Positions 342 to 3,568 of a stretch of DNA of 62,778 nt are shown here, piece after piece (the first letter of the stretch is position 1; each line of letters starts with the position of its first letter). The stretch lies in contig JAJTXZ010000022.1 in assembly GCA_021463195.1 (NCBI GenBank), forward strand, positions 1 through 62,778. The letters run 5' to 3'. The DNA comes from Anaerolineae bacterium. Lineage in GTDB: Bacteria; Chloroflexota; Anaerolineae; UBA4142; SHND01. The position numbers were made by a program, and so were the translations under genes. Below the pieces are notes generated by a model that saw only the letters and a list, made by a program, of their open reading frames with translations, was not told where the DNA came from and did not search any database.

Positions 342-370
342 CTGTCAACGCGACGCGACTGTGCTATACT
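342..370 (+). promoter_or_regulatory. Promoter of the methylase-like gene, leaderless arrangement
   Basis: CTGTCA at 342-347, 17 bases, then TATACT at 365-370 preceded by TGTGC (extended -10). The GTG start at 378 is 7 bases after the -10, so transcription would begin at or next to the start codon. No Shine-Dalgarno-like sequence precedes the GTG. Confidence 0.6.
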
Positions 371-377
371 CGCGCGC

Positions 378-2702
378 GTGTCAGAGCAACCATTTGTGCC
401 GCCGCGCGACGCGCGCTTTTATCTTCTCGGCGCGCATCGCCAACCGCTGCCCGCGAATATCGCCGCGCATTTTATCGAACACTTTACGCAGCCCGGCGAT
501 TTGGTCGTTGACCCATTCATCGCGTCGGACGCGGTCGCGCGCGCGGCGTTAGAGCGCGGACGCAGAATTTTGGCGACGGAATCCAATCCGCTCGTGGCGT
601 GGGCGACGCGCGCGCAAGCGACGATGCCGCCCGCGCGCGAGATTCAAGCCGCGTTGGCGCGCCTGAGCGAAATTCGCAAAGAGAGCGAAACGCTGCGCGC
701 GTATGTTGAAAAATTGTACGCGAGTCAATGCGCGCAATGCGGCGCCGCGGTGACGGTGGATTATTTTATCAATCGGCGCGACGGCGAAAAAAATCTGTTG
801 GCGGAAAAATTTTATACCTGCGCGTCATGCGGCGCGCGGCGCGATGCCGTCACCGCGGGCGACCGTCAACGCGCGCGCGATGCCGCGCCGCGCGGTTTAA
901 CGCTGGCGCTGCTCACACAGCGCCTATATGCCGATGAATCCGCGCACACTGCGCAGCTCAAACGTTTATTGGAATATTACACGCCGCGCAATCTCAACGC
1001 GCTCGCGACGCTGACCCAGAAACTGGACGCGGAATTTCGGCAGGACGCGACGCGCAATCTCGTGATGACATTGTTATTGCACGCCTTGGATGTCGGTTCG
1101 GCGCTGTATTCAGCATCTGACGCGCTGCCCGCGCGGAATATTCCTTCCGAATTTCTCGAAATGAATATTTGGCGCGCGTTAACGAACGCGGCGCGCGGTT
1201 TGAGCGAACGCGCGCCGGCGCTGCGACTGGCGACAAACGCGGCGCAGGTTGTGAATTCCACTTTACCCGCGGCATTCATCGGCGCAGGCAGCGCGCGCTT
1301 TCTCGCGGAACAGGCGGCGGACGCGCAGGCGGCGTTAATTCTTTCCAGTCCTGCGCGGCTCGACCCAACCTTTTGGGAGCTGTCGTTTTTATGGGCGCGC
1401 TGGCTGTTGGGAAAGAATGCGGCGGCGCCGTTAGAGCCGCTGCTCGAAACGGAACGACACCGCTGGGGTTGGTACGGCGGAGCATTAATCAAGGCGTTGG
1501 ACGAGGCGACAAAATTGGCGCGTCACGACGCGCGTCTCGTCGTCGCGTTTCCGTCAGGCAGCCATGCGGTCATCGAGGCGTTGGTCTTGGCCGCCGCGCC
1601 AGCGTACACACTGCAAGCTTTCGCGTTTCGTCCGCGCGAGGCGCTGCAGAGCGCGACCGAGTTTGGCGCGCTGCGCGGCGATTATCAAGCGCTTTGGCAG
1701 CGCGCCGCGCCGCGCGCCGACGAACCGACGCTGTCAGACACGGCTCTGAGCGCGACGCTGCGCGATACCGCGCTGCGCGGCGCGTTGGCGACACTGCGCG
1801 CGCGCGGCGAACCCGTTCCCTTTTCATGGGCGCATCATGGCGCGTTGGCGGAATTGGCGCGCGCGAATGTATTGCGCGCGACGTTGACACGCGAATATCG
1901 CAAGGGCGATAACGCATTTCAATTTTTGCGGCATCAGATTGATGGCGGTTTAAAACAGGGCTATGCGGAAGAATTGGACCATTGGCAAGCACAAACGCGC
2001 GTCTTGTGGTTCACGCGACAAAATCACGCGCAACAAACATCGTTAGCCGCGCGCGTCGCGCGCCGCGTGCGTGAATTATTGCGCGCGCAGGAGCGCATGA
2101 CGCCCGAAGCGTTGGATGAAAAGATTTTGGCGGATTTCACCGAACTCGCGACGCCGGAACGCGAATTGGTGGACCTCGGCGCGCGGGCATGCGCTGACCT
2201 GAACGAAACGGAATGGGTGTGGCGCGACGAGGACGCCGCGGAATGGGGCGCGCGCGCGCAAACGCGCGCGGCGCAGTTGGGCGCGCAGTTGGGTTATCAG
2301 GTGACGCAAGACGCCGCGCCGTTTGAAATGATTTGGCGCGCGGAAAAAATTATTCCCGGCTCGGCGAATGGCACCGTGCGCGAAGAACGCTATTATGAAG
2401 ATACGTACGCGTTTATTTTTCGCGCGCGCATTGAATTGGAAGAATTATTGATCCCGCGCGCCGCGCCGCTGCGCGGTTTCATTGTGCTGGCTGAAACGCA
2501 AGTGGAATTGACGCGATATCTTTTATGGCGCGATCCGCGCTGGATGAAAAAATTGAAACAGGCGGGCTGGGAATTTTTACGCGCGCGCGGACTCGACGAA
2601 CTATTGCGGCAGCCCGCTGCGACGCGGCACGAATTCCATTTGGCATGGGGATTGCCGCCCGCGCGGGCGGAACGTCAAGCGCAAATGGAATTGTTTGAAT
2701 GA
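378..2702 (+). CDS. DNA-methylase-like protein with degenerate catalytic motifs
   Basis: A 774-residue protein starting at GTG. Residues about 15-75 follow the layout of adenine-specific DNA methylases of the kind annotated with DUF1156: a conserved start, then PGDLVVDPFIASDA where active enzymes have DPFxGSG, then GRRILATESNP. A zinc-ribbon-like CAQC...CASC pair sits near residues 117-155. A YTPRNLNAL segment matches the region active homologues use before their catalytic motif. Where those have (T)DPPY this protein reads SSPAR, followed by the expected WELSFLWARWL helix. Both the AdoMet-binding glycine motif and the catalytic motif are therefore altered, so methyl transfer is unlikely. The frame is intact over 2.3 kb, which argues for a retained non-catalytic role (inference). 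The last 250 residues are not recognised. The gene stands alone, transcribed away from the left edge. Confidence 0.7.
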   Translation: MSEQPFVPPRDARFYLLGAHRQPLPANIAAHFIEHFTQPGDLVVDPFIASDAVARAALERGRRILATESNPLVAWATRAQATMPPAREIQAALARLSEIRKESETLRAYVEKLYASQCAQCGAAVTVDYFINRRDGEKNLLAEKFYTCASCGARRDAVTAGDRQRARDAAPRGLTLALLTQRLYADESAHTAQLKRLLEYYTPRNLNALATLTQKLDAEFRQDATRNLVMTLLLHALDVGSALYSASDALPARNIPSEFLEMNIWRALTNAARGLSERAPALRLATNAAQVVNSTLPAAFIGAGSARFLAEQAADAQAALILSSPARLDPTFWELSFLWARWLLGKNAAAPLEPLLETERHRWGWYGGALIKALDEATKLARHDARLVVAFPSGSHAVIEALVLAAAPAYTLQAFAFRPREALQSATEFGALRGDYQALWQRAAPRADEPTLSDTALSATLRDTALRGALATLRARGEPVPFSWAHHGALAELARANVLRATLTREYRKGDNAFQFLRHQIDGGLKQGYAEELDHWQAQTRVLWFTRQNHAQQTSLAARVARRVRELLRAQERMTPEALDEKILADFTELATPERELVDLGARACADLNETEWVWRDEDAAEWGARAQTRAAQLGAQLGYQVTQDAAPFEMIWRAEKIIPGSANGTVREERYYEDTYAFIFRARIELEELLIPRAAPLRGFIVLAETQVELTRYLLWRDPRWMKKLKQAGWEFLRARGLDELLRQPAATRHEFHLAWGLPPARAERQAQMELFE

Positions 2703-2731: not shown

Positions 2732-3568
2732 TTACAAGTCGGTGGCGACGCGTTCGACCTTGAACTCTTTGCCGTTTTTATGCAAACGCCCCAGCGTCAT
2801 TACGGCATCGTGTTGAAACACGAGCAGCATATTTTCTTCGTACGCCCATTCGCGAATATGCCGCTTGGTCTCGATGCTCACCATCGGCTCGATGTCATAA
2901 GCAGGCACCCACGCCAGATGTTCGAGATAAATGGTGCGTCCGGCAACGTCGCCGAGAAAAAGCGCCTTTTCGCCTTTCGATTCGATAATGACGGCTTGAT
3001 GCGCGCGCGTGTGACCGGGCGTAATGATGGTGCGAACTTCTTCGGTGATTTGGGAGTCGCCATTGAGCATGCAAACACGTTCGAGTGGAATAAAATTATC
3101 GGGCGCGTAGGTGGCTTTGGTGCGTTCGTTTGGAAACGCCGCGTCAAGAAATTCTTGACGTTGAATCCAATACTCGGCGTTGGGGAACGTCGGCAAAATA
3201 TCTTGGCCGACGCGATAGGTGTTGCCGCCCGCGTGGTCGGCGTGCAAATGCGTGTTGATGACCAAATCAATGTCGTGGGGCAAAAATCCGATGCGCGCCA
3301 TATTCGTCAATAATTTGGCGCCGCCTTTACGCGCGAAATTACGTTCTTGCTTGGCGGTCAATTTCGCGCCCAAACCCGTGTCCACCAAGATCGTCTTGTC
3401 GCGCGTGACAATGATAAGACAATTCAGCGCGGTTTTAACACGATTAAATTCATCGGGCGCGAGCATCTTTTCCCACAAGATGCGCGGCACGACGCCGAAC
3501 ATGCCGCCGCCGTCCATTCGCACAAAACCGTCGCTGACCACAAATATTTCTACATTGCCGAGTCGCAT
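2732..3568 (-). CDS. Metallo-beta-lactamase-fold hydrolase
   Basis: A 278-residue protein of the metallo-beta-lactamase superfamily. The zinc-binding HLHADHAGG motif lies near residue 108, with further ligands in ITPGHTRAH, LFLGDVAG and the late VFQHDA. The family hydrolyses esters, lactones or thioesters through one or two metal ions. The layout (an N-terminal strand, ILVDTGLG, HxHxDH, GDxxG) resembles quorum-quenching lactonases and related hydrolases, but the substrate cannot be read from sequence. There is no signal peptide, so it is probably cytoplasmic. It converges with the methylase-like gene and shares a bidirectional terminator with it. Confidence 0.85.
   Translation of the reverse strand: MRLGNVEIFVVSDGFVRMDGGGMFGVVPRILWEKMLAPDEFNRVKTALNCLIIVTRDKTILVDTGLGAKLTAKQERNFARKGGAKLLTNMARIGFLPHDIDLVINTHLHADHAGGNTYRVGQDILPTFPNAEYWIQRQEFLDAAFPNERTKATYAPDNFIPLERVCMLNGDSQITEEVRTIITPGHTRAHQAVIIESKGEKALFLGDVAGRTIYLEHLAWVPAYDIEPMVSIETKRHIREWAYEENMLLVFQHDAVMTLGRLHKNGKEFKVERVATDL

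Follow-up and report, generated by a model that had tools for sequence, protein, structure and literature searches.

The first gene of the window, by which we mean the whole stretch of 62,778 nucleotides analyzed here (Anaerolineae bacterium contig JAJTXZ010000022.1), is, as judged from its sequence, a homologue of DNA N6/N4-methylases with degenerate AdoMet-binding and catalytic loops. We propose, with a probability of roughly 0.6, that this pseudo-methylase now serves in replication or repair as a DNA-binding protein tethered to the sliding clamp. Its 774-codon reading frame is uninterrupted by stops, as an earlier sequence-only reading of the same DNA had stated; the positions of its features are given in Table 1.

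Table 1. Window coordinates of features in and directly upstream of the pseudo-methylase gene
Feature	Position	Strand	Basis
Extended -10 promoter element TGTGCTATACT	360..370	+	Ends 7 nt before start codon; conserved in relatives
Pseudo-methylase gene, whole	378..2702	+	GTG start; 774 aa; homologues; dN/dS 0.13-0.28
N-terminal motif X/I part of methyltransferase fold (aa 18-82)	429..623	+	PF01555; AlphaFold, VIA-align Z ~16
Degenerate AdoMet-binding motif I, DPFIASD (aa 45-51)	510..530	+	Family alignment
Zinc ribbon C118-x2-C121 ... C148-x2-C151, insert after core strand 2	729..830	+	99/99 invariant
YTPRNL motif (aa 201-206), common to active relatives	978..995	+	R204 in 98/99
E-x-N-x-W motif (aa 261-265), common to active relatives	1158..1172	+	99/99 invariant
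Degenerate catalytic motif IV, SSPARLD (aa 323-329)	1344..1364	+	0/99 with (D/N/S)PP(Y/F/W); lowest pN/pS, 0.13
First predicted winged-helix domain (aa ~454-550)	1737..2027	+	AlphaFold pLDDT 89, VIA-align
Second predicted winged-helix domain (aa ~554-617)	2037..2228	+	VIA-align Z 8-9.7, ~64 residues (model residues 109-172)
Predicted restriction-endonuclease-like domain (aa ~617-757), without conserved catalytic residues	2226..2648	+	VIA-align, residue census
QMELF (aa 769-773), sliding-clamp-binding-like motif in disordered tail	2682..2696	+	Tail counts; consensus QLxLF per PMC4549789

The Pfam profile N6_N4_Mtase (PF01555) matched residues 18-70 only (36 bits, E 9e-9, over the curated cut-off), at the end of the profile that carries motifs X and I. 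NCBIfam returned nothing above cut-off, and no family in either collection covers the protein beyond this methylase stub of about 50 residues. The methylase relationship suggested by the sequence-only reading is visible to profiles over this segment. DUF1156, which had been named with it, was not detected in Pfam searches at E values up to 10, with HMMER filters that drop weak matches. No paper was found on this pseudo-methylase family or on a clamp-bound methylase in Chloroflexota.

The active relatives from the window's class (L059-L063) contain DPFCGSG/GGG and, where complete, TDPPF/Y. In a profile-profile alignment (hhalign probability 99.9, E 6e-35, 553 columns) DPFIASD of the window protein falls opposite the motif I of active relatives, and SSPARLD falls opposite their motif IV, TDPPFGG. 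The degeneration of both motifs noted from the sequence was thereby confirmed, and because orthologues of comparable length that share both losses are found throughout the phylum, the losses are more than chance. None of the 99 aligned family sequences has (D/N/S)PP(Y/F/W) at motif IV; 14 keep (D/N/S)PP with the aromatic residue gone. In the same alignment the G-x-G of motif I (D/E-x-F-x-G-x-G) is present in no member from the window's class and is kept in five of the 99 sequences (L215-L219), one family of another class that reads DPWAGTGW, and the motif II acid varies across the family. Canonical motifs at other positions, a possibility raised in the sequence-only reading, were found in no homologue. 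Methylation has very probably been lost, a conclusion about as firm as sequence data permit. The simplest history would have the catalytic loop disappear ahead of the family's radiation, with loss of the AdoMet loop following, perhaps repeatedly. The L215-L219 clade (e.g., L216:457-3405) has an intact AdoMet loop and an acidic motif II but a lost motif IV, and is possibly an AdoMet-binding non-methylase and a living intermediate.

Residues C118, C121, C148, C151, E261, N263, and W265 are invariant in all 99 sequences of the family alignment and R182 and R204 are kept in 98; all of these lie within the insert that follows strand 2. The cysteines previously described as a zinc-ribbon-like pair are indeed retained, but as the four cysteines of a full ribbon rather than as a pair. 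An AlphaFold model built from 23 sequences (pLDDT 86.7, pTM 0.86) places a methyltransferase fold with the inserted zinc ribbon first, followed by two winged helices and then a putative restriction-endonuclease-like domain. Foldseek with the full model gave no match below E 0.001, and the fold was resolved by VIA-align, in which the methyltransferase part matched Trm11 (Z 16.3, rmsd 2.8, 169 aligned). The C-terminal half modelled alone reached a pLDDT of 89 and yielded the two winged helices. As a candidate for the alpha-beta-beta-beta-alpha-beta core of PD-(D/E)XK endonucleases, residues ~617-757 of this model matched EcoT38I (Z 7.3, 113 aa) and, with lower scores, BsaWI, BstEII, FokI, and BspD6I, all of them modest matches (Z 6-7). 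The PD-(D/E)XK catalytic residues D...(D/E)xK are not conserved in the alignment (D650 in 62/99, E680 in 13/99, and K682 in 3/99). Homology between the endonuclease-like domain and the C-terminal domain of the active relatives was rejected, the hhalign comparison not being significant. By eye, the outgroup segment FEVEW.. resembles FEVATT.. despite that result, and the C-terminus of two active zinc-ribbon methylases (L059 and L060; DLLALKGYTIVAAFEVATT) looks PD-(D/E)XK-like without the lysine, a resemblance unconfirmed by profile comparison.

Near-full-length homologues (~740-1030 aa) are present in most close relatives at one copy per genome. Of 199 genomes that represent the class, 78 carry one; 84 gave some match, but in six of these it was a weak generic-methylase match and nothing more. 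Another 25 sampled genomes, from other classes of the phylum, also carry one. The 98 distinct homologues contain no stops inside the matched stretches, and the scattered stop codons that might have marked pseudogenes in relatives were not found; one copy (G186:C275:11764-13747) is split over reading frames and is possibly a broken copy or an assembly error. In a tree built from 105 proteins, members of the same taxonomic family group together wherever at least two are labelled, and we therefore conclude that inheritance has been vertical. Scanned viral contigs and plasmids held no full-length copy; their matches were to generic methylases and were short or partial, and a phage or plasmid origin was rejected on this basis. 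Copies from the same genus gave dN/dS values of 0.13-0.28. The region around motif IV (aa 316-346) had a pN/pS of 0.13, the lowest of the regions measured in the gene; within the genus, selection therefore maintains the loop in its degenerate state. By these sequence comparisons the gene is solitary, single-copy, vertically inherited in Chloroflexota, and under purifying selection. The proposal of the sequence-only reading that the protein is repurposed, probably non-catalytic, and of a DNA-binding type is supported.

The C-terminus carries a feature that the sequence-only reading missed and that is new here: a QLxLF-type tail on a pseudo-methylase. The window protein ends QMELF-E within a tail that is disordered in the AlphaFold model (pLDDT below 50). 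C-terminal QLxLF is a published beta-clamp-binding motif (PMC4549789). Among complete tails, which are not independent counts since the relatives share ancestry, QL.[LM]F was present in 43 of 98 (0.2% of shuffled tails; 0 of 3089 windows from the remainder of these proteins), Q[LMI].[LM][FL] in 72 of 98 (1.3%; 5 of 3089), and a looser form in 86 of 98 (5.2%; 33 of 3089). All sampled members of 28 of 35 families have a clamp-type tail, and one large group has QIPLF; in the sampled members of six families (f9, f19, f30, f82, f83, and f94) the motif is divergent or absent. The residues just before the motif vary, and a GLxP element ahead of it is also conserved. Among 372 unrelated ORFs from these neighbourhoods, a canonical tail occurs once, on a uracil-DNA glycosylase (PF03167; L045:10278-10880) that ends EQLSLF and lies directly downstream of a family member without the motif in its own tail. 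Three active methylase relatives that were inspected have no QLxLF tail. DNA polymerase IV is a known clamp client, and its tails in the same genomes are of the QLEL type (...WQLELAL in the window's own genome). The pseudo-methylase resembles clamp clients such as Pol IV and transposases in having a C-terminal QLxLF-type pentapeptide on a flexible tail; it differs from them in having no polymerase or transposase domain, and its clamp binding is inferred. Together, these observations suggest that the tail probably docks onto the DnaN sliding clamp.

An extended -10 element (TGTGYTATACT) precedes the start codon by ~7-8 nt in most close relatives; it recurs at a similar spacing in members of the genus and in the majority of relatives from the same order. 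The exact pattern occurs at 10 sites in the genome, which read as leaderless promoters, and because the conserved element is directly before the start codon, the pseudo-methylase gene likely has its own leaderless transcript. A G+C-rich hairpin with a T-run, seen directly at 2703-2731 between this gene and the convergent gene at 2732-3568 on the minus strand, is likely a terminator common to both. No neighbourhood is common across families and no operon partner hints at a process; a function based on operon context was rejected, as neighbours differ between families. Ten neighbours were profiled. Those that matched Pfam are rotamase, folate enzyme, lactamase-fold, HEAT-repeat, and epimerase proteins, and no BREX, restriction-modification, or other defence genes were among the ten.

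The architecture is closest to that of PglXI (BREX type 3)/COG1743 zinc-ribbon methylases, which have the same motif order X-I, a zinc-ribbon insert after strand 2, and the same YTPRNL and E-x-N-x-W, with motif IV and the remainder of the Rossmann fold following. Relative to these enzymes the pseudo-methylase has degenerate motifs I and IV, stands alone and is vertically inherited, and carries two C-terminal winged helices and an endonuclease-like domain. PADLOC places the active relatives L059-L063 among PglXI/Type II methylases, and this strong PglXI match of the nearest active relatives is what would favor a component of anti-phage defence (BREX type 3 or DUF1156-like). The window protein, however, matches PglXI only over residues 24-55 (16 bits), its neighbours are unshared and the profiled ones ordinary, its tree follows taxonomy, and viral contigs and plasmids lack full-length copies. 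The defensive role entertained in the sequence-only reading accordingly finds no backing in this solitary, single-copy gene, and we regard it as very improbable. A decaying pseudogene or relic is more improbable by far: both catalytic motifs are lost and the G186:C275 copy is in separate frame pieces, but about 100 frames are intact, and the dN/dS values, the invariant residues, and the conserved promoter all speak against decay.

The two predicted winged helices and the zinc ribbon would also suit a chromosome-binding regulator or nucleoid protein in which QLxLF serves a non-clamp use, as a structural cap or in binding another partner, and the conservation of GLxP ahead of the motif and the absence of the motif from some families are consistent with such a protein. 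We consider this unlikely, since the position of the motif, its disordered context, and its Q-L-x-L-F preferences fit a clamp motif closely, and similar tails occur on Pol IV and a uracil-DNA glycosylase encoded in this or related genomes. A regulatory function, which the sequence-only reading had also suggested, retains some plausibility, while the C-terminal motif points instead to replication or repair. Still less likely is an enzyme with a relocated or novel active site in the methyltransferase fold or the endonuclease-like domain. Strong constraint around residues 316-346, which could mean different chemistry rather than none, the conserved polar residues E261, N263, R182, and R204, and the G-x-G AdoMet loop kept by one outgroup clade argue for catalysis. 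Against it, YTPR and E-x-N-x-W are common to active methylases and so look like structural or target-binding positions, the catalytic lysine and glutamate of the endonuclease-like domain are rarely present, and the motif II acid varies freely. Substitution for mismatch repair in the manner of NucS was rejected as the main idea: MutS1-type genes are present in 59 of 60 relatives, so the pseudo-methylase does not replace mismatch repair.

We favor a clamp-tethered pseudo-methylase, in which a COG1743/PglXI-like zinc-ribbon DNA methylase, probably of restriction-modification or BREX-type origin, would have been domesticated early in Chloroflexota as a stand-alone, single housekeeping gene. As suggested by the domain types, the zinc ribbon and the two winged helices would bind DNA without modifying it, and the endonuclease-like domain would bind DNA or serve as a scaffold without cutting. 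The C-terminal QLxLF would dock into the DnaN pocket, such that the protein travels with the sliding clamp or is brought to it at replication forks or sites of repair. There it may act as a reader of DNA structure or of a DNA mark, as a clamp-bound scaffold, or in traffic control at the fork, rather than as a methylase. A more tentative extension, to which we give slightly less than even odds, is that the protein is a phylum-wide replication or repair component of Chloroflexota, a permanent clamp partner that reads the structure, damage, or methylation of DNA in the wake of the fork.

In eukaryotes, DNMT1 is a PCNA-binding maintenance methylase, and METTL14-type proteins are pseudo-methyltransferases. 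DNMT1 offers a likeness in a methylase tethered to a clamp and METTL14-type proteins in a methyltransferase fold kept after catalysis was lost; no homology to either is claimed, and the two features would meet here in one bacterial protein. If the proposal is correct, Chloroflexota possess a factor associated with the clamp for which Pfam and NCBIfam have no family beyond the ~50-residue methylase stub, and which is thus likely to be annotated wrongly as a DNA methylase. The protein would represent a bacterial DNA methylase that exchanged its chemistry for a core role in genome maintenance, with an intermediate stage still alive in the clade that keeps the AdoMet loop without the catalytic loop.
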